Shown: positions 4,040 through 25,607 of the stretch, piece by piece | Numbering within the stretch: position 1 is the stretch's first letter | Layout of the letters: each line of letters starts with the position of its first letter | Virus record (IMG/VR): IMGVR_UViG_3300005289_000065 | Span: 1 to 39,328 of that record | Direction: 5' to 3' (one strand) | Length of the DNA stretch: 39,328 bases | Source of the DNA: a virus | Notes under the pieces: model-generated | The model's database searches: none | What the model saw: the letters and a program-made list of their open reading frames with translations, nothing else | Told to the model about the DNA's origin: nothing | Made by a program: the position numbers and the translations under genes

Positions 4040-4050
4040 AAGGAGTCTAT

Positions 4051-8088: not shown

Positions 8089-11000
8089 GTGGCGGCGCTG
8101 GTCACGTTCCACCGGGGCTGGATCCAAAAACTCGCGGCACATACCTACGAAGAAGGTGAGCTGCGCGACGCCCTGAATGTTGTGCCTGATGGACAGGGGG
8201 CCATCCTCACACGGCTTGGCCATACGCTCGTCAATTCGACTAGTCAGAGTGATGTGCATAGTCTTTTCAGCACATATTCAGATTTAGGTGTCCTCATTCG
8301 TTACCAGGGTGCAGGTACCGCACTCTATCGCAACTTTGTCTCGATTGTCACTGGCCTTTCTGGCGTTCCTCTAGCCTTTGTCTCTGCCCGCTCCTTTGGT
8401 GAACAGAAGGTCTACACGTTCTTTGCGGGTGGGACGAACGGCCAACCAGCGCTGCGGGTGAAAGATGACGGGATTGCCGTCAGCCGTTGGGGGTTGAATC
8501 CCCCCTTTGCGGCCCCGAGCCAAGCCACTGGGGGCACGGGCGCTCTCAGTGGTACCTATGCTTGGCGCCAAGTCTATCTGCGCAAGCCACTCATTCCGTC
8601 CGTCTATGGCCGGTATACCGCGGGAACAAATACCTACACGCTTGCCGCTGCGGGTCCAATTACCCTCACGACTGTGCTTGCCTCTGACGGTCTAGCCATT
8701 GGCGGAACGCGCCCCTTCAGCGAAATTGTGTTTGCCCTGACTGGCGCGGCCAGTGTGGGTGGTGTCTATGACTATGCCTATTGGCAAGGGACTGTCTGGG
8801 CGCCGTTCACCCCCGATGTGTTCCCAGTCTATACGTCCACCGGTATCACCAATGTGCGTTGGAGCTTCCCTGTGGGCAGTTGGGTTCCCGATGCCGCGGG
8901 GCAGTATGTGATTCGTATCCGGGGGACAACGCCACCCGGTACCAGTGCCATCGTGAACACGTTTCGGCTCTACGATAGTGTGATCTCGGCCCAGTCCAAC
9001 GCGTCGCCCCCGAGTCAAGAAGTCGTCGTCAGTGCGGCCCCCACCTATGGCCGCTGGGATGCCAGCACCGCAACCTATGCTCTGGGGGCCTTTGGCCCGA
9101 TTACACTGACGACGGGTGTAACGAATGATGGGGTCATTGTGGGTGGTATCCGGCCATCGCGCAAGATGATTGTCACCGTGACCGGGGTGGCGGCGGCTGG
9201 CGCTACCTACGACTATAGCTACTGGAATGGCACCGTCTGGGTGGGGTTTGCCCTCACGACCACCCCCGACTATATGACGCTCGGCGATACCGCCGCAGAG
9301 TGGGCTGTGCCACTCGCAGGCTGGGTCCCGGATGTCTATGGGTTTTACTCGATACGTATCCGGGGAACCGTCCCACCTGGGACCAGCGCCATTCTCGCCG
9401 CGTTTCGACTGTATGACTCGCTCAGTGGGGCAGATTTGGGCGGGGCCACCGGACGGATCGTCACGCTCACCAACCCGCTGATTCCTGGCACGATCGACTA
9501 TGACCCCCAGATTACGCATAGCGCGCTCTACCGTACCCGTGGCGATGATCCCGCGTGGATTTCGGGGGCGGGACTGGAGAACGCGTTGTTCTACTTTGAG
9601 ATGGAAGTCCCCGCCGAGATGACGGTGCAGAACTCCATTATGGACGATGATCGCCTGAACGAGTTGTTGGAAATCGACAATGACCGGCCTCCGGCGTTCT
9701 CGACGATCACCTACCATCAGAATCGTGTCTGGGGCGCGGTCGGCAATCGGCTCTATCCCAGCAAACCCGACATGCCAGAGTCCTTTTCGCCAGCAAGCTA
9801 TGTGCCCGTCTCCGTCCCTGGCGATCCCATACGGCGGATTGCGCAGTTTGATGGGAATCTCTATGTCTGGACCGCCGCCCGGGTGTTTCTCGTGCTTGGC
9901 ACGGATGAGCTGTCCTATGTGGCTCGGCAGATTCAGTGCCCTACGGGCCTTGGGGCTTTCAACACGGTGGATCAGGGTGCCAAGGGTGTCTACTTCCTGG
10001 GCTCAGATGGGAATCTGTGGCTCCTGCAAGGGACCACGGTAGCTATAAATGTGTCCCAAGATGACCACTACCAGTTCTTCCACTCGCTCACGTTGCATGG
10101 GATTCTCTCGCTCAACCAGGCCGCCCGTGATGTATGCGTAGGGGTGTGGGCCTATAGCCGCTACTACCTCAGCTATCCCCAGGGCACCGATGTGTTTCCA
10201 ACCGCCAGTCTGTTTGTGGATGAGTCAGACGGAACGTGGTGGCGCGATACGCGTGCGTGGCGGGCCATGACCTATGATCGCCAGGCCAATGATTTGTACG
10301 GCAGCAACCAAGGTGGCGGCGTGTTTCTTCTCGAAAGTGGTGATACGGATAATGGCGCCGCGTTTAGCTGGCGCGTCCAGACGCGGGATGATGATGAAGG
10401 GGCGCCCGAGAGTACCCAGACACTCGTGCAGCTCACCGTCGATGCGGATACCCAAGACACCCCCCTGACCGTGTTGCTGGTACGCGACTTCGGGAGTCTG
10501 AGTGCCAATAGCCTGGGGACGGTGACGACTGGGCAGCGAGAGCAACAGATCCTCACAGCGGGGCTTCCTGACTTACTGCGAGCCAAAGCGTTTGGCTATG
10601 TCCTGAGCGGGCTTGCGCCAATGGTGGTCTACCGGCTGATTCCCCAAGTACGCCGTGCCCCACCCGATATGAAGGCGTGGATGAGCTTGTGGAGTACGAT
10701 GGGCTACGCGGGACCCAAGCTTCTAGAGAGCCTTCTCCTAGATGTGGACCTGATATCAGGCACACTGACGTGTCAGGTCTACGGAAATCAGGCGTTGGTC
10801 GAGACATTTGTGCTGACAGCATCTGGGCGTACGGTGAGTCAGGTAATTACGCATCCGCATGAGGCCGACGTCTTTCAATTTGTCATAACGGGCACAGGTA
10901 CGTTTGCGTTGTATGAATCGTCGGTTGTGGGCTGGCGGCCCTTGGCTGCACCGATTTACAACGACGCATTAATTCCGTCAGGACTTGACTCTTCCCAGCA

Positions 11001-11334
11001 GAAAATAGGGCTTTCGTATTCACAGGATATCGAGTTGCTCGACGAAGGGACGTTGACTGTGCGGTTCCTTGCGGACGGCACCGAAATTCACCGCATCATT
11101 TATGATACCCCCGGACGCCACCGTACCGATCGGTTGCGGCTCCCCGCTGAGATGAGAGGCAGGTTACTGGAAGTGAGGCGCCAAAGTACTGTAGAGTATA
11201 GACTTTGGGAATCTACCGTTTTGGAGGTGCAGGACGTTGGTGCGCCACGCCCACGTGATGTCCGCTTTGTGGCAGACACCTATGGGCAATTTACTCGCAC
11301 GCCGCTTCTCAGTCTTGTGCAGCAAGGAAGCTGA
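8089..11334 (+). CDS. Large beta-rich nozzle/stabilisation-like tail protein
   Basis: This 1081-aa protein starts at GTG with GAGGATGG upstream. Residues about 171-301 and 319-447 are two copies of one beta module (GPITLTT, YDY[AS]YW[QN]GTVW, W-V-P-D, YxIRIRGTxPPGTSAI, FRLYDS). The module also occurs once in the protein at 5509. The central part (about 530-780) has repeated strand and loop segments such as YHQNRVWGAVGNRLYPSKPD, RIAQFDGNLYVWTAARVFLV, GVYFLGSDGNLWLLQG and VGVWAYSRYYLSYP. This pattern is like the beta-propeller of podovirus nozzle proteins (T7 gp12) or tail stabilisation proteins. The C-terminal third is beta-rich. A role in the tail tube below the connector is inferred from propeller-like sequence and gene order. 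Confidence 0.7.
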   Translation: MAALVTFHRGWIQKLAAHTYEEGELRDALNVVPDGQGAILTRLGHTLVNSTSQSDVHSLFSTYSDLGVLIRYQGAGTALYRNFVSIVTGLSGVPLAFVSARSFGEQKVYTFFAGGTNGQPALRVKDDGIAVSRWGLNPPFAAPSQATGGTGALSGTYAWRQVYLRKPLIPSVYGRYTAGTNTYTLAAAGPITLTTVLASDGLAIGGTRPFSEIVFALTGAASVGGVYDYAYWQGTVWAPFTPDVFPVYTSTGITNVRWSFPVGSWVPDAAGQYVIRIRGTTPPGTSAIVNTFRLYDSVISAQSNASPPSQEVVVSAAPTYGRWDASTATYALGAFGPITLTTGVTNDGVIVGGIRPSRKMIVTVTGVAAAGATYDYSYWNGTVWVGFALTTTPDYMTLGDTAAEWAVPLAGWVPDVYGFYSIRIRGTVPPGTSAILAAFRLYDSLSGADLGGATGRIVTLTNPLIPGTIDYDPQITHSALYRTRGDDPAWISGAGLENALFYFEMEVPAEMTVQNSIMDDDRLNELLEIDNDRPPAFSTITYHQNRVWGAVGNRLYPSKPDMPESFSPASYVPVSVPGDPIRRIAQFDGNLYVWTAARVFLVLGTDELSYVARQIQCPTGLGAFNTVDQGAKGVYFLGSDGNLWLLQGTTVAINVSQDDHYQFFHSLTLHGILSLNQAARDVCVGVWAYSRYYLSYPQGTDVFPTASLFVDESDGTWWRDTRAWRAMTYDRQANDLYGSNQGGGVFLLESGDTDNGAAFSWRVQTRDDDEGAPESTQTLVQLTVDADTQDTPLTVLLVRDFGSLSANSLGTVTTGQREQQILTAGLPDLLRAKAFGYVLSGLAPMVVYRLIPQVRRAPPDMKAWMSLWSTMGYAGPKLLESLLLDVDLISGTLTCQVYGNQALVETFVLTASGRTVSQVITHPHEADVFQFVITGTGTFALYESSVVGWRPLAAPIYNDALIPSGLDSSQQKIGLSYSQDIELLDEGTLTVRFLADGTEIHRIIYDTPGRHRTDRLRLPAEMRGRLLEVRRQSTVEYRLWESTVLEVQDVGAPRPRDVRFVADTYGQFTRTPLLSLVQQGS

Positions 11335-11729: not shown

Positions 11730-11745
11730 GCACGGTTTTCGTGCT
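11729..11745. other. Short perfect hairpin AGCACG-GTTTT-CGTGCT
   Basis: A 6-bp perfect inverted repeat with a 5-nt loop spans the stop codon of the small coiled-coil gene. It is followed by TGCTATGCT, which resembles an extended -10 element (TGN-TATGCT), 18 bp before the ATG of the next gene. It may be a weak terminator, an mRNA-stabilising hairpin or part of a promoter. There is no T tract and no good -35. Confidence 0.3.
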
Positions 11746-11767
11746 ATGCTCTAGCTGGAGGTTCTCG

Positions 11768-12448
11768 ATGGCAACACTCGCCCCGTTTATCCCTGGCCTA
11801 CCAACCACGTCACGCTCGCGTGTTCCCCGTGACGTCCTTCAAGAGAAAACGTGGCTGGGCATGGAGATGCGGAACCGTGGGCCGAAAGGCTACCGCGCTT
11901 CTCACGAAACTCCCTGGTGCCTAAGTCGCTATGCTTATGATGACACGAATGGGGACTTCCTCCTCTTCTGGTACTTCCAAGTCTTCCGAGATGGTGAGCA
12001 TGCCCAACTCTGGGGCGAAGTCGGGCTCAGTCCCTTGCGCTTTCTTGCCACCTTTATGCATGTTCCGTTGCTGGTGGCCTATCAGGAGGGTGCTGACTGG
12101 TTGAAAGGCCAGGGGCTGCTCTTTGCCGTCTGGGGCGATGATTGGATTGATGGTGTGCGGGCACGACTGCATTTCTGGGCCGCGCCACAAGCTCGGACGT
12201 TGCGGGTGCTTCTCCCGATCGGCCAAGAAGTCCTGCGCACCTGTTTTGAGGATCTGGGGCTCCAATTGCTGGAAGGACGTACTCCAACAGACAATGCTGG
12301 CGCGTTACGCTTTATTGCCCGCCTAGGCTTCCGGCAAGTCCATAGGCTTGATCATGGCGAATGGCAGTGGAACGCTGATGGTACCAAGCAGATCATCCCC
12401 GTCATCCAGTCACAACTGCTAGTCGAGCACTGGAGGGCGCATGCCTAA
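11768..12448 (+). CDS. GNAT-fold acetyltransferase-like protein
   Basis: The 226-aa protein starts at ATG 11768, six bases after GGAGG; an upstream in-frame start at 11741 is less likely. C-terminal residues carry the typical GNAT pattern: a helix with NAGALRFIARLGFRQVHRLD, where 'A..FI.RLGF' precedes the last strands. The N-terminal part (WCLSRYAYDDTNGDFLLFWYFQVF) is beta-rich. Gene order (after the nozzle-like gene, before internal-type proteins) parallels T7 gp13, an internal-core assembly protein with a GNAT-like fold. It may act structurally rather than as an enzyme. I see no clear acetyl-CoA pyrophosphate loop (Q/RxxGxG/A), so catalysis is doubtful. Confidence 0.6.
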   Translation: MATLAPFIPGLPTTSRSRVPRDVLQEKTWLGMEMRNRGPKGYRASHETPWCLSRYAYDDTNGDFLLFWYFQVFRDGEHAQLWGEVGLSPLRFLATFMHVPLLVAYQEGADWLKGQGLLFAVWGDDWIDGVRARLHFWAAPQARTLRVLLPIGQEVLRTCFEDLGLQLLEGRTPTDNAGALRFIARLGFRQVHRLDHGEWQWNADGTKQIIPVIQSQLLVEHWRAHA

Positions 12449-12547: not shown

Positions 12548-13561
12548 TTGGGTCAAATACTCGGGTTTGGAGCCAGCGGCGGGGATAAATCAAAACAAAC
12601 GACGACCCCCAAAGCACCGCCCTACCTGGAAGAGGCCTATAAAAACATCGGCGGCTATGTTCAATCGAATCTTCCCGCCCTGCAAAACATGACCTATGGG
12701 GTCTTTGCCGGCGATAAGTCTGCCGTGGCACCCTATACGTCTCCGACCGCCGCGGGGTATACACGTACGCTGGCCTCCACGTATCAACCCACCGCGGTTG
12801 CCTATCAACCCCAGGCAGCCAACTATCAGCCAACAGCGTGGGCCTACAAGCCGGTGTCGGGGAGTCAGACTGCCTTTGGTTCGTCCTATCGCCCCGTCTC
12901 TGGCTCCCAAGCGTCCTATTTGCCGGGCGTGGAATCGTCCGTGCGTCCAACGGTTGCGCCCTTCGCGCTTCAGCAGCGTCAACAGCAGCAACAGATTATG
13001 CGTCAGCAACCGAGTGGGGGTTCTCGCGATACGGCCATGGCGCTCGCCGGCCAGCAAGCCGGAGTCGCTGCCGCGTCAGCGCAAGGCCAAGCTGCCCAAC
13101 AGGATGTGCAGAGCCGGAATGCCGCGCGTCAACGGGATATCGAGTTGCAGAATGCCTATGCCAAAGGCGATATCGACGCTATCAATGCCCTGCACCAGAA
13201 GGATATCGAAGTCAAAAATGCGTACGCCAGGGGAGACATTGAAGCGGCCAATGCGTTGCAACAGATGGATCTCCAGAAATGGATGTCCCTTCAGGAGCAG
13301 GACACGACCGCGCGCAATGCCCTGGTGCAAGGCGACCTCAAGAAATGGATGGAACTCCAGCAAGGCGATGTCCAGAATCAGAATGCGCTCCAGGTGGCGG
13401 ATATTCAGGCGCAAAACGCCATGATGCAGAAGGTGCTGGCGGCGTACCTCCAGATGGTCGGTGGATATAACCCGCAAACCATGGTTGGTTCAGACCAAGA
13501 ACGCAAGGATGCTGGGTCGCTCGGTTTGCCTTTTGTAAATAAAACAACGGGTTACAGCTAA
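12548..13561 (+). CDS. Gln-rich coiled-coil internal virion-like protein
   Basis: The 337-aa reading starts at TTG (MGQILGFGASGG), a Gly-rich N-terminus of a type common in phage ejection proteins. No strong ribosome-binding site is visible, so the start is uncertain. Residues about 55-110 are Tyr/Pro/Ala repeats (YQPTAVAYQPQAANYQPTAWAYKPVSGSQ). From about 135 to 300 it is a long helix with an 11-13-residue repeat of the form [IV]xxxNAxx[KQR]GDI[DE]xxNALxQxD, seen about eight times. Such long helical proteins occupy the T7 gp14/gp15 position as internal-core or ejection proteins. The stop overlaps the next start (TAATG). The role is inferred from order and composition. Confidence 0.6.
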   Translation: MGQILGFGASGGDKSKQTTTPKAPPYLEEAYKNIGGYVQSNLPALQNMTYGVFAGDKSAVAPYTSPTAAGYTRTLASTYQPTAVAYQPQAANYQPTAWAYKPVSGSQTAFGSSYRPVSGSQASYLPGVESSVRPTVAPFALQQRQQQQQIMRQQPSGGSRDTAMALAGQQAGVAAASAQGQAAQQDVQSRNAARQRDIELQNAYAKGDIDAINALHQKDIEVKNAYARGDIEAANALQQMDLQKWMSLQEQDTTARNALVQGDLKKWMELQQGDVQNQNALQVADIQAQNAMMQKVLAAYLQMVGGYNPQTMVGSDQERKDAGSLGLPFVNKTTGYS

Positions 13562-14250
13562 TGGCTGACTATAGCTTGTTCGATGTGATTGGTGGTCGTC
13601 CTGAGCGCTTTGATGTCTATGACCAGCCAAACGTTGGTCCAACGCCTGTATTGCAACAGGCCCCCGCACAAGCTGACCAAAGCTGGACCCAGATGCTTGG
13701 CCAAATGGCAAAACGTTACATGGATAACCAGGGAGCCGCTACCCCATCAGGCTCGCTCCAATCGGCGCGGCCTTCCGGGAGTAGCCAGGGACTGCTCAGC
13801 AACTCGCGCAGTGGGGTAGATATTGGCACGGTCATCAAAATTGCGTCCGCAATCTATGGTGCTCCGGCTGCCGCGCCTGCGGCTGGCGCGATGGGTGGTG
13901 GCGCAGGGATGGCCCCTGGCATGGCCGTTGCGGCTGATGCCGCGCCTGCTGCCGCAAGCGGGGGTGGCAGTATGATGGGTGGCATGGGAAGCATGTTTGG
14001 CGGGGGCGGCGGTGGAGCCAGCGGTGGTGGCATGGACATGGGCGGCATGCTCAGTGGGATTATGGGCGGTGGTGGCGTCAGTAGTAAGGGTGGGAGTCGG
14101 GGTGGTGGTGGACTGAGTCCTGTATTAGGCGGCTACCAGGGCAAAGCGATTCCCCGTTCCGCGTTTGCCGATGTGCCGATGAACCGTAACCCGCTGATTC
14201 CCCAAGGTGTTAATTCCTTCGATATTCGCAACTATCCCCAGCCGTATTAG
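13561..14250 (+). CDS. Gly/Met-rich low-complexity virion-cluster protein
   Basis: This 229-aa protein starts in a TAATG overlap. The N-terminal 90 residues are mixed (DVIGGRPERFDVYDQ, SWTQMLGQMAKRYM, GVDIGTVIKIASAIYG). Residues about 100-200 are extremely Gly-, Ala- and Met-rich (GGAGMAPGMAV, SMMGGMGSMFGGGGGG, GGMDMGGMLSGIMGGGG). The C-terminus is ordinary again. Gly/Met-rich segments next to ejection proteins could be membrane-active or flexible linkers in an ejection channel, but this is inference. I do not recognise the family. Confidence 0.6.
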   Translation: MADYSLFDVIGGRPERFDVYDQPNVGPTPVLQQAPAQADQSWTQMLGQMAKRYMDNQGAATPSGSLQSARPSGSSQGLLSNSRSGVDIGTVIKIASAIYGAPAAAPAAGAMGGGAGMAPGMAVAADAAPAAASGGGSMMGGMGSMFGGGGGGASGGGMDMGGMLSGIMGGGGVSSKGGSRGGGGLSPVLGGYQGKAIPRSAFADVPMNRNPLIPQGVNSFDIRNYPQPY

Positions 14251-14262
14251 GAGTCTGTCCCC

Positions 14263-16962
14263 ATGGCGTGGCGCAATAATGTGTGGGAACCGGAAGACTA
14301 CCCTGCGAGTTCGTTTGCGCCTGACGCAGAGCCGGACCCGTCGCCCTTCCTGCGCCAGCCCGCAGCATCCCAACAGTATGGGAACATCGGTATGGCAGCG
14401 CCTTCCCCAGCCTTGCGTCAACCTGAGATGCCCAGTAGTGGGGGTGGTGGTTCATTCTGGGGAGGGGTCCTTGACCTATTACGTAATGTACCAATTACAT
14501 TGGGTGATCGCAAGCATGGCCAGACGACGCTGCCCAGTTACAATGAGATGACCGCGGGGCGCCGCCTGACCGACTTTGGCAAAGCGCAAGGGCTAGACAT
14601 GGGGACGTATGGCGGTGGTGGCTCTGTCTCTCCGGGAGAAGCACAATTTGCGGTGCGAGAGGGATTGCGGAAGCGGGATGAGGCGCCGCTTGGGCCGGAG
14701 GAGGCGCTCAAACTTTTTCCGTATCAACCCGGCGAGTCGCCAGAGACGGACATGCATCGGGCGTTTGCAGCTCGGCTTCGCCAGAAAGATATCGGGTCGT
14801 TGTATGGGCATCTCGTCACGCAGTACGGTCTTCCAGGAATGGGCGGTAGTCTAAGCGACACAGCAGGGTTTGAGCTTCCACCGCCGAATACCACCCCTGG
14901 ACAACCATCCTTAGAGAATGGAGCACTTCCTACCCAACCTGTTGCGCCAGGAGTCCCCGCCCCGCAAGCACCCATCGTGGGGAAACTAGACAGTGGCCGT
15001 CCGATCATTCGTCATCCTGACGGCGCCTATTCTACCCATATCAACAAACAGATGGAATTTGATGGGAAAGTCTATAACGTCCCAACGCTCTATGGTGGCA
15101 AACAGGTGACGGACCAAGAGGCTGGGAACATTATGAAGCAGACAAAGCTCATTGATCCTGATACGGGGCGTCCTTTGACCCCTTACAACAGTATTGAGGA
15201 GGCACGGGCTGCGTATGCGACAGAACATGACGCGATTGACCGCGAAGTACGAACAAAAATGGAGGGTGCAGTACTGCCTTCCAGCACCACATCCTTAGCT
15301 GTTCAACCTCCTGTCCCAACAATACCTGCCCGACCCCCAGGCGCTGTCCCCACGGTTACCCCTGTAGCCCAAGTCCAACCACAAGCGCCTTCCATGCAGC
15401 CGGCCCCAGCCGCCGCGCCACTCGCTGCGCAGGGACTTCCGCCGACACGGGATGTCATGGCGCTTCCCCCAAGGCCCACACGTCCGAGTGGGCAGGTCAC
15501 ACTCGAAGAACAACAACGCCACCCCTCTGTCCTAGCGGCAGAAGAAGCCTACCGTCTCCAGCGGACTATGCAGAATCGTGCGGCCCTCTTGAAGGCCCGA
15601 CAAGCGAGTCCAGCGCTTATTCGCCAAGAACAGCGCAAACAGTATGATGATGCTCATCGGCAGTGGGGGGAAGACATCAGAACGTGGGTAGAAACCAGGC
15701 GGGCGATGATGCCGGATTGGAAGCTGGATAAGGATCTGACGACACAGATTCTCATCGACAATCCCACGCTACCGGCAGGCAGCTTTCCTACACAGCCTAT
15801 GATTAGCACCGCCGCGACCAATCTTGCGGCACGTCAAGCGGAAGACAAGGCACGGGAGGAAGGGCTCACCACGAAGGCACGGCTTGGGGCAAACTATCAA
15901 AACTATCTCGATCTTCCACTCCACGCCACCGAGAAAGAACGGGCGACGCACTGGTACTATACCGATTCGGGTACGCCACTCGAAACCTCACGGACGGGGG
16001 CTGAAGCTGAAGCGCTTGCGCGTGCAGGGAAAGCTCGCCAGGTCTCCGTGGAAGATCACCGGCAACTCGCAATTATGGGCAGCGCCGCTGATGTCATGCA
16101 AGAAGGCGCACGCCTCACAAAGAAAGCCTATAGTATTCTGGACGGCCAGTTTGGGAAGATGACTCCGGCTGAACGCGCGAATCCTGCGGAGTGGGTACAA
16201 GGCCACTGGGATCAAATTACGCAAGATCATCCGGAAATCATTCAAGCGCAACGCTTCTGGGCTGGGTCTGCACAGCTCTTAGCACGTGGCGTGTCAGCCG
16301 CAAAAGGCGACCTCAATGCTCAGGAACTGGAAAAGGCTAATGCGCTGGCCCCGCAAATGATGTATCTGGCGAATGGTTTGGGTGTCAGCGTCGGTGCCAA
16401 TGGTGTCAAGATTGGTACTCCTTCTCAGTTGATACCTGATACCCGTGAGGTGGCATTGCGGACGCTTGACAACACGACTAATCTGTTGAATGGTCGAGCG
16501 GCACGTATTCTGGGAAAACCGGGATTCCAGTATCCCGGACTGACCAGCGGCACCGAGTCGCAGTATGCGAAAGACCGTGAGGAGCAAGAGCGACAGCGTG
16601 CAAAGACGCCTGCGGCTCCAATGACCCCCGCGGCTGCCGCGCAGAAGAAGCTAGGGGAATTTGAAAAGACGGGTGCGGCATGGATTGGGGAGCAGGTGGG
16701 CAGAGTTAAAAAGGCTGTAACCGGGCCACCCGCGCCGCCCCCATCCCCAACTGCCGCCCCCATGCAACAAGCCTATCAAACGTCGCTCAAGCAACATGGC
16801 ATCACGGCGCCGCCCAATCCCTCCAGTCCCGAATTTCAAGCCTTCATGGCGACCGTCTATCAGCAACTCGGGCGCTATCGCAAAGATCTGTCGCCTGCTC
16901 AACTCGCTGAACTCACCAAGACCATTGCGCAAAAGTATGGTGGGACATGGCAACCGCAGTAG
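14263..16962 (+). CDS. Internal/ejection virion protein
   Basis: This 899-aa protein is preceded by AGGAG, with its ATG 12 bases after the previous stop. Residues about 240-326 hold a recognisable phage domain (IIRHPDGAYSTHIN, FDGKVYNVPTLYGGK, SIEEARAAYATEHD), found in internal virion and polyvalent proteins ('DGs.sT...v..dGk.ynvPT...Gk...eA'). A Pro-rich linker (about 345-400) follows, then a long helical region with many charged residues (about 410-830). The C-terminus (SSPEFQAFMATVYQQLGRYRKDLSPAQLAELTKTIAQKYGG) is helical. It overlaps the giant gene by 16 bp. Position parallels T7 gp15 before gp16. An ejection role is inferred. Confidence 0.6.
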   Translation: MAWRNNVWEPEDYPASSFAPDAEPDPSPFLRQPAASQQYGNIGMAAPSPALRQPEMPSSGGGGSFWGGVLDLLRNVPITLGDRKHGQTTLPSYNEMTAGRRLTDFGKAQGLDMGTYGGGGSVSPGEAQFAVREGLRKRDEAPLGPEEALKLFPYQPGESPETDMHRAFAARLRQKDIGSLYGHLVTQYGLPGMGGSLSDTAGFELPPPNTTPGQPSLENGALPTQPVAPGVPAPQAPIVGKLDSGRPIIRHPDGAYSTHINKQMEFDGKVYNVPTLYGGKQVTDQEAGNIMKQTKLIDPDTGRPLTPYNSIEEARAAYATEHDAIDREVRTKMEGAVLPSSTTSLAVQPPVPTIPARPPGAVPTVTPVAQVQPQAPSMQPAPAAAPLAAQGLPPTRDVMALPPRPTRPSGQVTLEEQQRHPSVLAAEEAYRLQRTMQNRAALLKARQASPALIRQEQRKQYDDAHRQWGEDIRTWVETRRAMMPDWKLDKDLTTQILIDNPTLPAGSFPTQPMISTAATNLAARQAEDKAREEGLTTKARLGANYQNYLDLPLHATEKERATHWYYTDSGTPLETSRTGAEAEALARAGKARQVSVEDHRQLAIMGSAADVMQEGARLTKKAYSILDGQFGKMTPAERANPAEWVQGHWDQITQDHPEIIQAQRFWAGSAQLLARGVSAAKGDLNAQELEKANALAPQMMYLANGLGVSVGANGVKIGTPSQLIPDTREVALRTLDNTTNLLNGRAARILGKPGFQYPGLTSGTESQYAKDREEQERQRAKTPAAPMTPAAAAQKKLGEFEKTGAAWIGEQVGRVKKAVTGPPAPPPSPTAAPMQQAYQTSLKQHGITAPPNPSSPEFQAFMATVYQQLGRYRKDLSPAQLAELTKTIAQKYGGTWQPQ

Positions 16963-19900
16963 ACCTCAACGCGCTGGCTGATGAGTTTGTCGGGAGCGCT
17001 GCGACGCGACCTGCAAAACCCACGCCTTCTCCCAAGTTGGCGCAACCGCGCACACCGCCACATCCGCTCGCCAATCCTGCCAGTGCTGAATTTCGGGCCA
17101 TGGCCCAGAAGTACGGCCATGATCCTGACGAAATTGCTCGCCTCATGCGGGCGGAGTCGGCGTTTAATCCCAACGCCGAATCCCCCAAAGGGGCGCAAGG
17201 GCTCTTGCAGCTCATGCCCAGTGTGCAGCAAGACTATGGCGTGACTGATCCGATGGACCCGGCCCAAAACGTGCCAGCGGCGATGCAGTACTTGCGCGAC
17301 CTGAAGAAGCGGTTCAAGGGTGACAGCCAGCTTGCGTATGCCGCGTGGAGTGCCGGGCCTGGCACCGTCGAGAAGTTGGGACGCGTCCCCAATTACCCTG
17401 AAACCCAGAACCTTATTGCCAAGGTGTTGCCAGGCGGAGGGACTGGTCCCGCACCCGTGACGCTCAGTCCTGCGGATATCGAACGGATGGCCAATGAGTT
17501 TGTGGGGACCAGTGGTGCTCCTGTTGCCCCGGCCGGCGTACCGCCGACTCCCCCCGTTGCCCAGAGTCCCGTACCCATGCAGCCCTATGCCGATGTCCCT
17601 GGCTATCCTGCGCCACGCCAACAAGTCCAGGCGGGCGCCGTGATGCCGGGTCCCACGTTAGGCGCCCCCGGCATGCAACAATGGCCACCCGCAGGGAAGA
17701 CGGTGGCTGCCGAGCCTCCCTCACTCGATAGGCCTGCACAACGCCCCGCCCCCTTAGGCGCGAAGATGGTAGGCCCTCCCACGCCCACCCGCACCCAGCT
17801 CGCGTATCAAGAAGAACTCACCCGGGCGCGTGAAGCTGGAGAACCGGTGCCGCCACCCCGTGACGAACCGCTGGAAGAAGTGGGACCGTATGGTGCGATT
17901 GACCTTGGTTATGGCTTACGCCAAGGCGGGGAGATCGTCGGTCGGCAGGTGAAAAATCTGGCGCACCTCTGGGGCAAATTCCACAGTCTCATTGATCCGA
18001 TGGGGCGGACGGCCATCAGCCAGGATCAGATGCCCGCCAAGCTCGAACAAGCTGCGCAACAAGCGGTGGAGTATCTGCGCGTCAATCCAGAGGCGATGCA
18101 GGACCGCAACCGCTTCGACCAGGTTCTGTTTCGCGCGGTGGGGCAGTTCATTCCCCAGATTGCGGAGTATATGGTGCTCAAGCCCCTGCTTGGCCCTGTG
18201 ACTGCGCTGGTCGGCCCGGCCATGGCGACGGAAGCGGATCAGGGAATTGGGGCCGCGGCCTGGGCGGGACTGAAGGCATACGTGCTTGGTAAAGTCCAAG
18301 GGGTGCTCGGTCAGCAAAACCCGCTCGTGGCGATTCCGTCCACTGGCGCCTTATTCAGTGCCACGACTTATGCAGAGACGGGTGATCCCCAGCAAGCCAT
18401 CGTTCAAGGGCTCATGGGCATGGGCATGACCGCGACCCAGGCGGGACGCACTGGCGTGCGTGAGGCCTACCAACGGTTCAGTGATTATGTCGATGCCGAG
18501 CTTGGGCGACGTCAGGGGCGGAGCCAAGGTCCTCAAGGGGCGCCGCCTGCTGGCGTGCCCTGGACAAAAGAGCAAGTCCTCCATGATGCGACGCAAGGGT
18601 TTCGCGAGAGCCGCAGTCAGGCGGACGTCGAGTCCATGCTCCGCCAGAAGCACAGCATGGACCCGGAGACCGCCCGCAATGCGGCACGCATGGCGTATGA
18701 CCTGTATGTGGAAGCGACCAAGAAAGGGTTTGGCGTTGGGGGGGAAGACGCGCCGCCTGCTGGTGGAACTCCCCCGCCAGGGACGCCGCCCCCATCGCCT
18801 CCGCCAGGTGGCCCTGGAGCAGAAGCACCGCCGCCCCCTGGACCAACACCCGGTCCCCAGCCGCAACCCCGTCCTGGCGCTGGACCATCTGGCACCGCTG
18901 TGACTCCGCGTCCCGCGCGACCTCCACGGTTGCCCGCAACACAGCAAGACGCTGCCGTCAGTGCGATGAATTTGCCCAGTGATATAGACACCCTGGCACG
19001 CCAGGGACTTGCACGTCCGATGGCTCCAGAGGAGGAAGCGTGGATTACACGCATGCTGGAGGACCTTGACCCCTCTAAGCCCGCGCCGACCGTTCCACCT
19101 GAGCCACCAGGCCAGCAAGCGCAGTTAGTGCCTTGGGCACGTCAGGAGCTGCTTATTGAAGGGCCTGGCGTGCCGACCAACGAACCCCTGTCCGAGCAAG
19201 AACGTTTTGATGCACAGTATGCCGCGCCAGGACCTGCGACTTTTCCGGCGCCTAGCTATCGTCCACCTGGTCCTGATAACATCGTCCCTTCACCAGAAGA
19301 AGTGGTGCCTGGGCGTCCGCGCGTGGGGCGTGCCCCGGAGGAGATGCGCAAGCTCCAGGAATATCTAGATGTTTGGTGGCGCCATTTCATGGTCGGCGGT
19401 GATAAACCGGCGATGGGGCCACGTGTCTTCACACGGACTGCTGAAGCCTTCCAAAAACAGATTCGCGAGATGCAGGCCGAGCATGGGAACAATGCTGACC
19501 CTGCGGTCCAGCACCAGCTCCAAAGCTTCCAGGACTACTCGCGTCGCATCGACCAGGCGGTCGAGCGGGAGATGCAGGCCCGGAAGCAAGCGCGGTTAGC
19601 ACAGCCCGAAGGCATGGTAGAGGCGGAAGTCGAGACACCTGCGGTTGTTCCGCAGCCAGAGCCCCCTGTTCCACCTACCCCGGCTGTGGCAGTCGCAACA
19701 CCTCCACGTACCGCTCCGTCGCTCGTCACGCCAATTGAGGACATCGGCGGGCCGCAACGCCCCACCCCGCCTCCAGTGCCACGCCGCGCCGCGCTGGACC
19801 CGCGTGAGGACTTTACGCAGGAGGCGTCTGTGCTCAATCGCCCACCTGCGGACGTGTGGAATATGCTGCGGGATGAATATGCTACAAGTCCGTCGCGTGA

Positions 19901-22900
19901 AGATGGACGCGTAGCGCTTCAGAAGGCAGGGATTCCCAGTCAGCCTGGCGATCGCCTGGTAGATATTGCCTATGGGGCACTGGCACGCGGGGAGGACTTG
20001 TTTCCTCCTCCCGTAGCTCAAGAAGTCCCGCTCCCTCCACCTCCTGGCCCTGGCATGGTCCGACTCTATCGCGGCTCCTCCACGAAGTCTATTCCCCTGC
20101 CTCCCTGGCTTGACGCAGATCCTAAGTTCCAGGCGACGAAGCACGCGACAGGACGTTGGTGGACGGATAATCTAGCGATTGCCAAATGGTATTATGATGA
20201 CGCCGCGCCTACCGCTAAGATTGAATATGTGGATGTGCCTGAAGCGGTAGCACAGCAGGGACGGTTACGGCAGCAACCGCCTGAAATACAGCGCTTCTCG
20301 CTTGACCCTGACAATGAATATTTTTTACCAGCACCGTATGCTGGACGGGGAGCGCCGTTGCCTGCGAGCTTGATTCCAGCCACTGCTCAGCCGCCACAAC
20401 CTCCAACACCTGTAGCGCCAGCGCCTACGGTCCCCAAGCCGGTACCCGAAGCCACAATCGCCAACAGCGGCACGCCATACAAGAGTAAACAGAATGCCGA
20501 CTTTGCCTTGACGCATAAGAAGGGTATCAGCCCAGAGCATCATGAAGTGGTCGAACGGCCAGGGTATGGATGGTTCATTGTGCCGAAGGGCAGTGCCGTC
20601 CCGAAAGCGGTAGAGCCCGTTGCGCCTACTGAGAAACCCTCTCCGACCCCTGAGCCGCCTTCACTGTACACAGCGCTGACAACCTGGGGCGCCAAGGTAA
20701 CGGATGCCTTCCAGCTTCCTGCGAATGAGCGGAAAGCGCAACTCACGACTCTACGCCAGGAAGGCGTAGCGATGCGTGATGCAGCCATGACATCGCCCGA
20801 GTTGGTGCCAACCTTTGATCCGCAATTTGAGCGGTTTCTGGGGATGATTGACGCTGAGCTAGGGAAACCTCAGTCTGCGTCTCCCGCTGTACAAACAGCC
20901 ACGGCGGCATCAACGCCCTTGCCCACACGCGAAAGTGTGTTGCCTGATCAGCCACCCCCTGTTCCTGTTGAGACACCAGCGCCACCAGCCCCCACCGCAA
21001 AAGTGGCGCCGCCGAGCGAAGAAGCACAAAACGCAGGTTTCCAGGCACTCGTCCGCGAGATTCGCCACCAACTCTTTGTCGGGGGGAAGGCCATTAAGGA
21101 TATCCGCGATCTCCAACGTCTTGCCGAAGCGGCCTATGGGTCGCATCGGGCGGAAGGCGCCTATGATACGCGGGATATGTACGATGCACTGGAAGTGGCT
21201 ATCAACCAGCAGGTGCGGGAGATAGATTTTCCCATCAATAAGCCACTCGACCAAGCGATTGGCACAGCAGAAGTCCTCCATGCATTCATGGAAAAGACGC
21301 CCACGCAAACGCTCCGTACCGCTGAGCAAGACCAGTTACAACAGTTCTCCACGCCCCTAGATTATGCTTATGCGACGGCGTGGGTTGCCAATCTCCAGCC
21401 GCAGGACCTGGTGATTGAGCCAAGCGCGGGCACCGGAACCATCGCTAATTTCGCTGCGATGGCGCTAGGACCCAAGAATGTGATCGTGAATGAGATTGCC
21501 CCGCGCCGTCTGGAAGCGCTCCGTATGCAGGGGTATGGGCAGATCACCAAAGAAGATGCCCTCTTCCTCAACACCATCCTCTCAACACGGCTAGAACGCC
21601 ATCCGAGTGTTGTGCTTATGAACCCGCCGTTCTCCATTGCAGCCTCCCAGGGACAACACAATCCCAAAGTTGGCGCCAATCATGTCGAGCAAGCGCTCAG
21701 GCTTCTTGCTGATGGCGGACGACTTGTTGCGATTGTTGGGCGCGGGATGGGACCAGAGACCGCAACGTTCCGGGAGTGGTTTGACAAAATTGGCAAGCAA
21801 CATAGCATCCGGGCCGTCATCGAAGTGGATGGGAAAGTCTACCAGAAACAGGGGACGGAGTTCGGGACTCGTATCATCGTGATTGACAAGGGGACGCCCA
21901 CCGCTGAAGGCAGTATACTCACGGGGAAGGTGGCGACGATTCCCGATCTCCTTCGCATGCTTGATGAGGTACGTAATGTCCGCACCATCACCGCAGTCGT
22001 CCCTACACCGGAGCGCCCTGACACTCCTGAAACGCGCCCAGGTGACACCCCACCCGGAAATCAGCCCACTCGTCCAACTGATGCAGTGGAGCCTCACGCA
22101 CCAAAAGGACGACCAGTTTCGCCACCTCCGCAAGTTCCAAGGCCAGGTCCTCGAAGAGATGGAGGCGTGGACCCCGGAGGAAGTGGAACAGTGGCTGCTC
22201 GCCCCGGGCGACCGCGATCCCCAAGCGGGGGACGCCCTACCCCTGGACGGCCTGGAGGGGCTGAATCCCCAGGAGGCGTCCCAAGTACTCTTGAGCCTCC
22301 TCCACGACCAGCTCCCGCTCCACAACCGGATGTACCCGCCCCTGAGCGACCCTCGGAACGCGGTCCCGAGAGAGTAGCGCCGGAAGCGCCCTCCCCATCC
22401 TCACCGCGCCCGCCCGAGACGCCAGCCGGGCAGGATGCCGAGCTGGTAGACCTCACGACGACCATCTTCCAGCCGTATATTGGGGCGAATCTCGGCATTG
22501 CCGATGCGCAGCCGCACCCAGGGGCATTGGTCGAAACAAGCGCAATGGCGTCTGTGGCCGGCCCATCAATTACCGTGCAGCATCATCTTGCCCCTAAAGT
22601 GATTACGGAAGGACGGCTCTCTATCGCCCAGTTGGACCCGGTACTCCGTGCACGCCAAGCGCATGACCGCCTGCTCCATAATGGGAAACGCCAAGGATTT
22701 TTCGACGGCGACGGCACCGGCACGGGCAAGGGCAGAATCATTGCGGGTATTATCTTTGACAACTGGCAAGAAGGCCGCACGAAAGCCTTGTGGGTCAGCA
22801 AAAGCCAGGACAATTTCGCGCAAGCGCAAGGTGATTGGGTGGATGTCTCTGGCCGTGACAAGCATGACATGTTTACGGTCCACCGTCCTAACATTCCACA

Positions 22901-25607
22901 TGCACAGCCGATCACTCGCGAGAGCGGCGTCTTGTTTATGCCCTACGACACACTGAAGGGGCATGCCAAGCATACCCCGGCTGATACACGCCTCAAGCAG
23001 GTCGTGGAATGGCTGGGGCCAGAGTTTGATGGAGTCATCGCGCTCGATGAAAGCCATTTGCTTGGGAATAATATGGCCGACCCCAACGAGATTTTTGGCA
23101 CGAAGGTCTCCCAGCGGGCCGCAGCGGGTCAGCAACTCCAGGACCTCCTGCCCAATGCCAGGGTAGTCTACCTGTCCGCGACAGGTGCTACCGAAGTCGC
23201 CAATCTGGGCTATCTCGACCGTCTCGGCATGTGGGGACCGGGCACCGCCTTTGCCACGAAAGGTGAGTTCGTAAATAAGGTGGCTTCCCGTGGCATTGCC
23301 GCCATGGAGTATGTGGCCCGCGATCTGAAGGCGATGGGACTCTATGCGGCCCGTTCCCTCTCCTTTGCCGATGTGCGCTATGAGCGATTAGAGGTGGAGT
23401 TGTCTCCTGCACAGATGGCTTCCTATGATCGCATTGCGGCGGCATGGCGGGAAGTCACCAAGAATATTGAAGAGGCGCTGACAACCACCGGTGGCAAAGG
23501 CAGCATGCAAGAACGCAATGCGATGAATCTGTTCTGGTCTACCCAACAGCGTTTCTTTAATCAGTTGATCACCAGTCTCAAAACGCCTGCGGTCATTGCC
23601 GATATGGACACCTATATCAACGATCCCAACGGCGGCGCGGCGATTATTCAGCTCACGAATACAAATGAGTCTACCCAGAAACGCCGCTTGGCACAGCTCC
23701 AAGAAGACGAAGACCTGGAAGACCTCACGCTGAGCCCCATGGACATCCTCATGGACTATATTCAGACGTCTTTCCCCGTAGGGGCACAGACACCGAAGCT
23801 CCAGGATGACGGCACGGTGGTCATGGTGCCACTCACCGATAGCGAAGGCCGTCCGGTTGAGAGCCCAGAAGCCGTCGCGATTCGCGACAAGATGATTGAT
23901 GAGATGGCCCAACTCCAAGCCGATATTCCCGATGGGCCGCTCGAACAAATCATCGACCATTTTGGCGTCGATCAGGTAGCGGAGATCACTGGGCGCAAGC
24001 AACGACTCATCTATAAAGAAGACGCATCGGGTAAGATGGTCCGCACGCGAGAGACCGGACGTACCGATCGCCACATTGCGCAGGACCTGAGCGACTTCCG
24101 CGATGATAAGAAGCGCATCCTGGTCTTCAGTGGCAAGGGCGATACGGGGATGGACTACCATGCGGGGCTCAAGTTCAAGAACCAGCGCCAACGCTACCAC
24201 TACCCACTCCAGCCCGGCTGGCGGGCCGATATGACGGTGCAGGGGCTCGGGCGCAGTCACCGCACCAATCAAGCGTCCGCACCCATCTATCGCTTACCAT
24301 CGACGAATCTTCCCGCCGAAAAACGGTTTATCTCGTCGATTGCGCGGCGACTCGACCAACTGGGTGCCCTTACGCGGGGACAACGGCAAGCGAGTGCCCA
24401 GGGCCTCTTTAGCGAGCGCGACAATCTGGAGACGGCCTATGCGGAAGACGCGTTGTATCGGCTGCTGCGTGATATTCAGGTGGGTCGCAATGTGAGTATT
24501 GGCCCAACCGAGTTCCTGGAGGCGACGGGGCTTGACGTGACGACACAGAAAGGCTTAGACGCCACGATTCCGCGCTTTCTCAATCGTCTCTTCATGTTTC
24601 CCTTTGCGGTCCAAAATAGTGTCTTTAATGATTTTAGTGCCCGACTGGATGATGTGATTGAAGCTGCGATTCAGAGTGGAACCTATGAGACGGGTGTCGA
24701 AACCATTCGGGCGGATCGTGTCACAAAAATGCGTGAGGAAGTGATTGCTACCCATGAAGGGACGGGCGCTGAGACCAGCTATATTGAGCTGAAGGTGGAG
24801 AATAAGCCGCGGCCAACGGCGTGGGACAAATTGCAAGCCCGGATTCAGACGCTCCTCCATACCGAACGAGGGTCTAGCCTCAAGGGCTATGCGCAAAACA
24901 ACCGCAGCAAGCGCGTCTATGCCATCATGGATACCTTGCCAGATGTGGACAAAAAGACCGGCAATCTCATTCCACGGCTACGCCTCATTGGCATCCTGAA
25001 TGAAGGAAAAGAGTTGGCGGCAGATCTTACCAAAGAGAAATATACTTTGGTCCCTGAAGACCAAGCCCAACAGCTCTGGACGCAAAACATTACGGCGCTG
25101 CCGGAATACCTCTCTCATACCGAACATCTGATTACAGGGCTCTTGATGCCCCACTGGGATAAGCTGGAAAATATCGCTACCAAGGTGCAGCAAGTCTTTA
25201 CCAATGATGGGGATCGCTTGTTGGGGCTTGTCGTGCCACCATCGCAACTCAAAGCCGTGATGCAGAACTTTGGCGTCACGTTGGGCGAGGACGCGCCTGC
25301 TCTGCCCTCTTATTCCCCTGAAGCGGCCATCGACCGTGTGTTGACCAATGGTAGCACCTTCCGGGTGAGTAACGGGTGGCACCTGGCTCCCTCCCGAATC
25401 GGGGGACAATCGCGTGTGGAACTGAAGCATGTCACGAGTGCCCAAGCCCGCAACTTGGAAGCCGATGGCGTGGTATATGAGCGGGTGGGGTATACCGCTC
25501 ACTACTTCCTTCCCACTGGTCCGCGTGGGCAGGACGTTTATCGCCGCGTCATGGTCGGCAAGCAATTAGCCCAAGAATTTGCGAAGGGGGAAAAGGTGGA
25601 CGACTAG
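16947..25607 (+). CDS. Giant polyvalent protein: transglycosylase, ART, adenine methyltransferase, strawberry-notch helicase (DarB-like)
   Basis: At 2886 aa this is the largest protein. Residues 45-155 are a lytic transglycosylase domain (catalytic Glu70 in RAESAFNP; GAQGLLQLMP 82-91; AAWSAGPG 132-139) that would open peptidoglycan during DNA entry. A hydrophobic Ala/Gly-rich region lies at about 395-500. A probable ADP-ribosyltransferase domain starts near 1037 (LYRGS; GRWWTDN at 1069-1075). An N6-adenine methyltransferase has EPSAGTGT at 1491-1498 and NPPF at 1559-1562. A strawberry-notch-type helicase has Walker A GDGTGTGKGR (Lys1928), DESH 2034-2037, LSATGATE and QGLGRSHRTNQ from 2432. 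Pro-rich linkers separate domains. The layout is that of polyvalent proteins co-injected with phage DNA, and the methyltransferase plus helicase pair recalls P1 DarB, which protects DNA from restriction. ATG overlaps the previous gene. Confidence 0.85.
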   Translation: MATAVDLNALADEFVGSAATRPAKPTPSPKLAQPRTPPHPLANPASAEFRAMAQKYGHDPDEIARLMRAESAFNPNAESPKGAQGLLQLMPSVQQDYGVTDPMDPAQNVPAAMQYLRDLKKRFKGDSQLAYAAWSAGPGTVEKLGRVPNYPETQNLIAKVLPGGGTGPAPVTLSPADIERMANEFVGTSGAPVAPAGVPPTPPVAQSPVPMQPYADVPGYPAPRQQVQAGAVMPGPTLGAPGMQQWPPAGKTVAAEPPSLDRPAQRPAPLGAKMVGPPTPTRTQLAYQEELTRAREAGEPVPPPRDEPLEEVGPYGAIDLGYGLRQGGEIVGRQVKNLAHLWGKFHSLIDPMGRTAISQDQMPAKLEQAAQQAVEYLRVNPEAMQDRNRFDQVLFRAVGQFIPQIAEYMVLKPLLGPVTALVGPAMATEADQGIGAAAWAGLKAYVLGKVQGVLGQQNPLVAIPSTGALFSATTYAETGDPQQAIVQGLMGMGMTATQAGRTGVREAYQRFSDYVDAELGRRQGRSQGPQGAPPAGVPWTKEQVLHDATQGFRESRSQADVESMLRQKHSMDPETARNAARMAYDLYVEATKKGFGVGGEDAPPAGGTPPPGTPPPSPPPGGPGAEAPPPPGPTPGPQPQPRPGAGPSGTAVTPRPARPPRLPATQQDAAVSAMNLPSDIDTLARQGLARPMAPEEEAWITRMLEDLDPSKPAPTVPPEPPGQQAQLVPWARQELLIEGPGVPTNEPLSEQERFDAQYAAPGPATFPAPSYRPPGPDNIVPSPEEVVPGRPRVGRAPEEMRKLQEYLDVWWRHFMVGGDKPAMGPRVFTRTAEAFQKQIREMQAEHGNNADPAVQHQLQSFQDYSRRIDQAVEREMQARKQARLAQPEGMVEAEVETPAVVPQPEPPVPPTPAVAVATPPRTAPSLVTPIEDIGGPQRPTPPPVPRRAALDPREDFTQEASVLNRPPADVWNMLRDEYATSPSREDGRVALQKAGIPSQPGDRLVDIAYGALARGEDLFPPPVAQEVPLPPPPGPGMVRLYRGSSTKSIPLPPWLDADPKFQATKHATGRWWTDNLAIAKWYYDDAAPTAKIEYVDVPEAVAQQGRLRQQPPEIQRFSLDPDNEYFLPAPYAGRGAPLPASLIPATAQPPQPPTPVAPAPTVPKPVPEATIANSGTPYKSKQNADFALTHKKGISPEHHEVVERPGYGWFIVPKGSAVPKAVEPVAPTEKPSPTPEPPSLYTALTTWGAKVTDAFQLPANERKAQLTTLRQEGVAMRDAAMTSPELVPTFDPQFERFLGMIDAELGKPQSASPAVQTATAASTPLPTRESVLPDQPPPVPVETPAPPAPTAKVAPPSEEAQNAGFQALVREIRHQLFVGGKAIKDIRDLQRLAEAAYGSHRAEGAYDTRDMYDALEVAINQQVREIDFPINKPLDQAIGTAEVLHAFMEKTPTQTLRTAEQDQLQQFSTPLDYAYATAWVANLQPQDLVIEPSAGTGTIANFAAMALGPKNVIVNEIAPRRLEALRMQGYGQITKEDALFLNTILSTRLERHPSVVLMNPPFSIAASQGQHNPKVGANHVEQALRLLADGGRLVAIVGRGMGPETATFREWFDKIGKQHSIRAVIEVDGKVYQKQGTEFGTRIIVIDKGTPTAEGSILTGKVATIPDLLRMLDEVRNVRTITAVVPTPERPDTPETRPGDTPPGNQPTRPTDAVEPHAPKGRPVSPPPQVPRPGPRRDGGVDPGGSGTVAARPGRPRSPSGGRPTPGRPGGAESPGGVPSTLEPPPRPAPAPQPDVPAPERPSERGPERVAPEAPSPSSPRPPETPAGQDAELVDLTTTIFQPYIGANLGIADAQPHPGALVETSAMASVAGPSITVQHHLAPKVITEGRLSIAQLDPVLRARQAHDRLLHNGKRQGFFDGDGTGTGKGRIIAGIIFDNWQEGRTKALWVSKSQDNFAQAQGDWVDVSGRDKHDMFTVHRPNIPHAQPITRESGVLFMPYDTLKGHAKHTPADTRLKQVVEWLGPEFDGVIALDESHLLGNNMADPNEIFGTKVSQRAAAGQQLQDLLPNARVVYLSATGATEVANLGYLDRLGMWGPGTAFATKGEFVNKVASRGIAAMEYVARDLKAMGLYAARSLSFADVRYERLEVELSPAQMASYDRIAAAWREVTKNIEEALTTTGGKGSMQERNAMNLFWSTQQRFFNQLITSLKTPAVIADMDTYINDPNGGAAIIQLTNTNESTQKRRLAQLQEDEDLEDLTLSPMDILMDYIQTSFPVGAQTPKLQDDGTVVMVPLTDSEGRPVESPEAVAIRDKMIDEMAQLQADIPDGPLEQIIDHFGVDQVAEITGRKQRLIYKEDASGKMVRTRETGRTDRHIAQDLSDFRDDKKRILVFSGKGDTGMDYHAGLKFKNQRQRYHYPLQPGWRADMTVQGLGRSHRTNQASAPIYRLPSTNLPAEKRFISSIARRLDQLGALTRGQRQASAQGLFSERDNLETAYAEDALYRLLRDIQVGRNVSIGPTEFLEATGLDVTTQKGLDATIPRFLNRLFMFPFAVQNSVFNDFSARLDDVIEAAIQSGTYETGVETIRADRVTKMREEVIATHEGTGAETSYIELKVENKPRPTAWDKLQARIQTLLHTERGSSLKGYAQNNRSKRVYAIMDTLPDVDKKTGNLIPRLRLIGILNEGKELAADLTKEKYTLVPEDQAQQLWTQNITALPEYLSHTEHLITGLLMPHWDKLENIATKVQQVFTNDGDRLLGLVVPPSQLKAVMQNFGVTLGEDAPALPSYSPEAAIDRVLTNGSTFRVSNGWHLAPSRIGGQSRVELKHVTSAQARNLEADGVVYERVGYTAHYFLPTGPRGQDVYRRVMVGKQLAQEFAKGEKVDD
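21976..22377 (+). CDS. Possible overprinted gene inside the polyvalent-protein linker
   Basis: In a second forward frame, a 133-aa reading from ATG 21976 to TAG 22377 has GAGG six bases upstream. It looks like an ordinary helical protein (LTLLKRAQVTPHPEISPLVQLMQ, WTPEEVEQWLLAPGDRD, GLEGLNPQEASQVLLSLLHD). The main frame over the same bases is only a low-complexity Pro/Gly/Arg linker between the methyltransferase and helicase domains. This contrast suggests either a nested gene or a linker that arose by overprinting. The alternative is that Pro-codon-rich DNA yields protein-like text by chance. I know of no family match. Confidence 0.35.
   Translation: MSAPSPQSSLHRSALTLLKRAQVTPHPEISPLVQLMQWSLTHQKDDQFRHLRKFQGQVLEEMEAWTPEEVEQWLLAPGDRDPQAGDALPLDGLEGLNPQEASQVLLSLLHDQLPLHNRMYPPLSDPRNAVPRE

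Follow-up and report, generated by a model that had tools for sequence, protein, structure and literature searches.

A giant phage protein joining a transglycosylase domain to a methyltransferase and a Strawberry-notch ATPase, and its putative place among ejection proteins

Gene content of the locus

The window analysed here is a 39,328-nt stretch of viral DNA (IMG/VR record IMGVR_UViG_3300005289_000065, positions 1 to 39,328). According to the ORF list, a giant polyvalent protein of putative ejection type, hereafter P0001, is encoded at 16947..25607 (+). It starts with ATG and runs in a single uninterrupted frame of 2886 aa, so the single chain claimed in a preliminary description of this DNA is real. 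Its first 16 nt overlap the end of the 899-aa ORF directly upstream (14263..16962, +), which is a candidate gp15-like tunnel protein by position and size; it had no family match among the PHROG and Pfam matches listed, and tblastn gave nothing for it in phage records. A string search of P0001 for the HExxH protease motif was negative, and the protein may therefore act as one chain. The sole HExxH among window ORFs of at least 100 aa lies on the minus strand, in a frame antisense to a coding ORF; thus, neither P0001 nor its neighbours offer a candidate for the processing by zincins that has been suggested for polyvalent proteins.

Several genes upstream of P0001 were assigned to virion-related or accessory functions, based on a PHROG search of the window (25 of 32 matches listed), Pfam and gene order. 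A protein matching PHROG 511, labelled internal virion protein (E 4.6e-15), is encoded at 8089..11334 (+), 6 kb upstream of P0001. It is followed by a GNAT-like protein (11741..12448, +; phrog_4470 acyl-CoA N-acyltransferase, E 2.3e-4; Acetyltransf_3, E 5.7e-4, under its cut-off), a 337-aa ORF (12548..13561, +) that by gene order takes the place of a Parlo virion structural protein, and a 229-aa ORF (13561..14250, +) with a weak match to the virion structural family phrog_4150 (E 0.007). In the podophages Parlo and Skulduggery, the order is GNAT, structural, hypothetical, structural, giant, and P0001 lies in the corresponding place.

PHROG 511 was matched in 11 of 28 records and had no match in the other 17. 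Apart from the window, nine viral records have the giant gene 2.5-18.6 kb downstream of PHROG 511 on the same strand, these nine including two near copies (L009 and L030) and two weak matches (E 2.1e-4 and 1.1e-7). Bacteroides phage BS-TP4 also has a PHROG 511 match, but not upstream of its giant on the same strand. The PHROG 511 protein of the window itself had no match in phage records, and with this protein and P0001 as queries no close relatives of this phage were found among viral contigs. Gene order is the strongest evidence tying P0001 to the ejection apparatus, and this positional evidence suggests rather than establishes the link. The window is incomplete and did not match the single terminase PHROG that was searched, so a short-tailed morphology is presumed.

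Other features of the window include two arrays of 37-nt units at 3581-4030 and 5055-5483. The units share conserved blocks of about GTGCGYAGCCG and GTGTCACCCG, with two 8-nt variable stretches between, and the largest family has 18 copies. The exact two-block pattern was absent from viral contigs, and the second array as RNA folded no better than shuffles (z +1.53). An ORF between the arrays (4000-5034, +) has a sub-threshold match to Transposase_20 (IS110-type; E 0.056). Additionally, two beta-helix proteins are encoded at 1954-3513 and 31346-33259 (+), the latter of which carries a lectin-like Laminin_G_3 domain, and these are possibly receptor-binding or depolymerase parts.

Domain architecture of P0001

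Three domains of P0001 were confirmed at the sequence level, namely an SLT transglycosylase, a gamma-type DNA methyltransferase (MTase) and a Strawberry-notch (Sno) SWI2/SNF2-like ATPase, and their domain and motif matches are far beyond chance. By Pfam, P0001 thus combines at least two biochemically disparate domains in one chain and is encoded among phage late or structural genes, two of the features that mark polyvalent proteins (Iyer et al. 2017); the third, transfer into the host together with the DNA, is predicted for P0001.

The SLT domain (17091..17387, +; residues 49-147; Pfam SLT, E 3.2e-22) contains the motif RAES, which holds the putative catalytic Glu, E70, as assigned by pairwise alignment to solved transglycosylases only. 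Residues 46-216 matched phrog_342 (internal virion protein with endolysin domain; E 3.4e-21). T7 gp16 likewise has an N-terminal SLT domain and a phrog_342 match, and P0001 probably occupies the same ejection-gene position. The two proteins differ in length (1318 aa for gp16 in excerpts of PMC8954989, against 2886 aa), and the C-terminal cytoplasmic part of gp16 has no homology in P0001, in which the best phrog_342 stretch stops at residue 216. The earlier label "T7 gp16 type" therefore holds for the SLT region but not for the C-terminal part, where the Sno module stands instead. Ejection proteins of the gp16 type have membrane-inserting segments; the most hydrophobic segment of P0001, a candidate membrane contact, lies at 18123..18236 (+; about residues 393-430), with a maximum 19-residue Kyte-Doolittle mean of 1.41, under the usual transmembrane cut-off of about 1.6.

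SLT domains also occur outside virion proteins, for example in bacterial transglycosylases, and packaging of P0001 is deduced from position. It might therefore be made after infection, stay unpackaged and act within the cell in DNA modification or replication, its SLT domain being a lysis or assembly enzyme. However, virion-type genes lie immediately before P0001, the start of which overlaps the preceding ORF, and podophage giants share this place; we consider such an intracellular role improbable.

The middle part of P0001 (18504..21113, +; about residues 520-1389) is proline-rich in places, with proline reaching up to 31% per 100 residues in parts of residues 500-1450. A domain search of residues 500-1450, the check named beforehand, yielded no Pfam domain over cut-off; the only entry at E<=1 was DUF2937 (E 0.081, 13 bits, cut-off 25). 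An ADP-ribosyltransferase (ART) had been claimed at about residues 1040-1149 (20064..20393, +), and four approaches gave nothing for it. For residues 1021-1190, no family was found in Pfam at E<=10, no match by tblastn at E<=1 against 50,697 phage records, and none in a scan of viral contigs with a reach limited to close relatives, while a single-sequence model of the region had a low-confidence fold (pLDDT 40.8, pTM 0.24). As a positive control, ART-PolyVal from the same Pfam library did match 1 of 39 relatives, so the library is able to detect such domains. The ART is thus unsupported rather than disproved.

The gamma-type adenine-MTase-like domain (21264..21986, +; residues 1440-1680) matched Pfam MTS at residues 1489-1613 (E 3.4e-5, 24 bits, cut-off 23), and a string search located QQFSTP at 1465, EPSAGTG at 1491 and NPPF at 1559. 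The TP and NPP(Y/F) motifs are named as in PMC5512222 (excerpt), and the other motifs of P0001 by their customary names. An MTase with NPP(F/Y) lies N-terminal to the ATPase in P0001, which is the arrangement of the Sno MTase-ATPase module. NPP[FYW] was kept in 26 of 26 ORFs, a count confined to the loci of the first scan, which were all retrieved without that motif as bait; NPPF was part of the query pattern in the two large scans (genomes and second viral). Among the matches listed, EPSAG.G was present in 85 of 89 viral ORFs, some rows ending at contig ends. A separate N6_N4 DNA methylase gene is located at 37752-39200 (-), near the contig end (Pfam, E 2.4e-9). This enzyme could protect the DNA before packaging, rendering an injected MTase redundant.

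The Sno SWI2/SNF2-like ATPase with its C-terminal module (22512..25604, +; residues 1856-2886) was identified by Pfam, model and PDB matches. AAA_34 matched residues 1856-2162 (E 3.3e-102, 342 bits, cut-off 27) and Helicase_C_4, the Strawberry-notch C-terminal domain of Pfam, matched residues 2331-2586 (E 8.4e-76, 255.7 bits, cut-off 30.5). The SF2 ATPase motifs GDGTGTGKGR, DESH and QGLGRSHRTNQ were located at 1921, 2034 and 2432 by string search, and the motifs of all three confirmed domains look intact. The preliminary description had named inactive motif residues in homologue alignments as evidence that would speak against it. Key MTase and helicase residues were invariant across a 14-row alignment, as were those of the helicase in a 49-row alignment (48 of 84 usable loci plus the window). 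Among the 89 viral ORFs listed, some of them cut at contig ends, the strict Walker pattern occurred in 69, DE[ASC]H in 86 and Q..GR..R in 84; L012 and L023, which miss the Walker pattern, still keep the G.GKG core in the 14-row alignment.

A helicase model built from the 49-sequence alignment (pLDDT 85.8) aligned best in the PDB with SWI2/SNF2-type ATPases and the defence helicase ZorD: CSB (Z 18.9, 438 aligned, rmsd 3.5), ZorD (Z 18.8, 435 aligned, rmsd 4.3) and the Sulfolobus SWI2/SNF2 core with dsDNA (Z 18.4, 412 aligned, rmsd 20.2). This amounts to a tie, since Z differences within 1 count as such; the realignment covered Foldseek's own matches. The predicted helicase fold is thus dsDNA-translocase-like, and a fold match by itself shows no function. 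"DarB-like methyltransferase-helicase", as the module had been called, is right in that an MTase and an SF2 helicase share one chain and imprecise as a label, the helicase being of the Sno family. The Sno module closes P0001, with 1446 aa remaining after the MTase start; fewer than 1600 aa follow the MTase start in only 3 of 72 viral ORFs with a complete 3' end among the matches listed.

Known giants and the spread of Sno modules

Giant DarB-like proteins combining a transglycosylase or wall hydrolase with a helicase and a methylase have been described from the podophages Parlo, CSP3, Bcep22 and Atu_ph08 (PMC6606913; PMC10269572 and PMC6630229, excerpts), so the SLT, helicase and MTase fusion itself is already in print. 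Parlo gp81 (3764 aa) and Skulduggery gp28 (3695 aa), giants of the Bcep22/Parlo type, carry an N-terminal SLT, an SF2 helicase and an MTase in one chain, as P0001 does. The founding Bcep22 paper is reportedly that of Gill et al. in 2011. Unlike P0001, the two giants have the helicase before the MTase, score only 28.5-29.6 bits with Helicase_C_4, under its cut-off, and both contain LPD39, which is absent from P0001 at E<=1. The Parlo giant also has a weak GNAT match (E 0.0095), whereas P0001 has none at E<=1. In a tblastn search of the P0001 helicase against the 50,697 annotated phage records at E<=1e-5, neither Parlo nor Skulduggery was matched; the one match was BS-TP4, at 24% identity. By sequence, P0001 appears distinct in its Sno-type helicase, its MTase-helicase order and its lack of LPD39, and at title and abstract level in one literature library, no SLT, MTase and Sno protein was described for any phage.

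Two scans of IMG/VR contigs with module alignments, the second keeping its best 80, yielded at least 89 viral loci. Among the matches listed, MTase and ATPase share one ORF at all 89, and over 400 aa precede the MTase at 85; the four exceptions are L160, L162 and two ORFs truncated at a contig end, L145 and L151. Because the MTase lies so deep at these 85 loci, giant Sno proteins are, judged from sequence, widespread in uncultured phages. Sno was found in "a few instances" among the polyvalent proteins of Iyer et al. (PMC5512222, excerpt). At genome loci (best 80 of 565 confirmed), only 5 of 80 have more than 400 aa before the MTase, and 75 have at most 400 aa, 5 of which are cut at the 5' end.

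Within the first 1100 aa of 79 giant N-termini, Pfam detected InPase in 13, GGDEF in 5 and SLT in 4. Members of the Sno giants L132-L175 have Acb1 (anti-CBASS), Zeta toxin, ddrB-ParB, 2'-5' ligase-like or GGDEF domains in this part. An over-cut-off SLT was found with a Sno module in one ORF in 4 of 27 records (L010, the near copies L022 and L024, and L029). It is very improbable that P0001 is an assembly chimera of an SLT half and an MTase-helicase half. The best relatives of the two halves do differ, but the 2886 codons form one open frame, and L010, L024 and L029, where the same two domains are joined, form one clade of the module tree.

Plasmids also carry Sno MTase-helicases. P0001 matched 1429 of 72,556 records of a plasmid collection, the best at about 40% identity over residues 1389-2886, for example on a Methylomonas sp. 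LL1 plasmid. Unlike in P0001, these modules lie near the N-terminus (MTase offset of 107-148 aa in four plasmid loci) and are followed by other C-terminal domains, such as a HELGH-containing stretch in L002. A FastTree phylogeny of 106 module rows, built after removal of near copies, segments shorter than 1300 aa and the majority of short bacterial rows, placed P0001 near the root beside phage giants and outside the plasmid-row clades, tentatively, given a long outgroup branch and 32 rows of odd composition. A recent capture of the P0001 module from a plasmid is therefore unsupported. Plasmid and bacterial modules that lack the giant N-terminus (L002-L005 and L033-L112) form a few clades amid the phage giants, the Methylomonas type beside L026, and these clades suggest exchange between phages and plasmids.

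The N-termini of Sno giants (L007-L032 and L113-L175) contain tandem short motifs, different in each phage. Tests covered 76 N-termini including P0001, after removal of L022, L030, L032, L120, L124, L144, 5'-open ORFs and ORFs in which no more than 400 aa precede the MTase. Over 120 aa, p<=0.005 was reached by 25 of 76 Sno giants and by none of 76 control windows from the same proteins, p<=0.01 by 27 versus 2 and p<=0.05 by 34 versus 7; over 200 aa, 35 of 76 reached the lowest possible p, 1/31. In P0001, two copies flank the SLT domain, LNALADEFVG (16965..16994, +; residues 7-16), a candidate packaging motif that is weak alone, and IERMANEFVG (17478..17507, +; residues 178-187). The pair was not significant (p 0.065 in 200 aa, 0.63 in 120 aa). 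It resembles a pair in L009/L030, and a shared pattern, written post hoc after the sequences had been seen, gave 4 hits against a shuffled mean of 0.12 and maximum of 2 (L030 excluded as a copy). Because P1 DarB has an N-terminal packaging signal, its first 30 residues sufficing to direct a reporter into the capsid (PMC9024508, excerpt), a natural guess is that the tandem motifs are possibly packaging signals. A tag shared with other ORFs of the same stretch was not supported as a general feature (31 tested, 5 shuffles each): P0001 had no hits above shuffled motifs, reverse-strand hits in L127 and L158 were clearly above shuffles, and L023, L029 and L017 were slightly above.

A proposed role in genome entry

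P0001 is probably a virion-packaged ejection protein of a phage of the short-tailed type, in the position of gp16 and of the DarB-like giants, that opens the cell wall and afterwards moves along the incoming DNA as a translocase and methylates it. Judging from gene position and SLT family, it would travel in the virion and leave it together with the other ejection proteins. The SLT domain, with its intact motif, would then open the peptidoglycan. Ejection proteins form a conduit with a cytoplasmic hub, and T7 gp16 has a transglycosylase fold, its C-terminal part being modelled as that hub (PMC8954989, excerpt). In P0001, the C-terminal half would reach the cytoplasm, where, by analogy with DarB and from motif conservation, the Sno ATPase would track along the incoming duplex. 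The gamma-type MTase fused to the ATPase would methylate this DNA at a presumed target sequence and so protect it in cis against restriction, ahead of any phage gene expression.

Phage P1 DarB resembles P0001 in combining an MTase with a SWI2/SNF2-type helicase, and it is packaged and antirestrictive (PMC5512222 and PMC9024508, excerpts); compared by published description, it differs from P0001, the helicase of which is Sno-type. Dar proteins are co-ejected and shield DNA from type I systems (PMC12810830, excerpt). The coupling of wall penetration to DNA protection that had been put forward for this protein fits its domains, its gene order and the DarB precedent, with packaging deduced from gene position and the ART left unsupported. 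The idea is not new, having been published for DarB-like giants.

Alternatively, the Sno ATPase might be an entry motor that is anchored at the inner membrane through the N-terminal half and pulls the genome in at the expense of ATP, with methylation coupled to movement. The predicted dsDNA-translocase-like fold, fused to a gp16-type N-terminus, would suit such a motor, and the idea borrows from the proposal for DEV that an ejected vRNAP pulls DNA in (PMC10925440, excerpt); for N4, pulling by vRNAP was left undecided (PMC12633501, excerpt). The N4 and DEV vRNAPs are, as proposed for P0001, giant ejected enzymes at the ejectosome (same excerpts), but the ejected enzyme there is an RNA polymerase and in P0001 a translocase-MTase. 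However, the reported role of the MTase-helicase P1 DarB is antirestriction, the module is not needed for ejection at the 75 short genome loci, and the anchoring domain of P0001 is hypothetical. Since some homologues lack the giant N-terminus and DarB provides a precedent, protection is a simpler role than a motor, which we regard as unlikely.

A bolder reading, to which we give a similarly small chance, is that P0001 is a self-contained entry machine, in which a gp16-type wall opener is joined to a cytoplasmic SWI2/SNF2-type translocase-MTase hub, a single pass both draws in the genome and marks it, and the N-terminal motifs are packaging signals. If true, Sno-type entry proteins would make up a large class among uncultured phages. 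P0001 bears on the question of what powers genome entry without transcription at the T7-type ejectosome. The gp16 C-terminal part is said to act enzymatically, and the excerpted text of the ejection-protein review (PMC8954989) contains neither the words "motor" and "ATP" nor mention of a helicase or methyltransferase. A gp16-positioned protein with a motif-complete translocase makes the motor idea testable. Moreover, DarB-like protection would be widened to a second ATPase class, with at least 89 loci in uncultured phages compared with one among the 50,697 annotated phage records.
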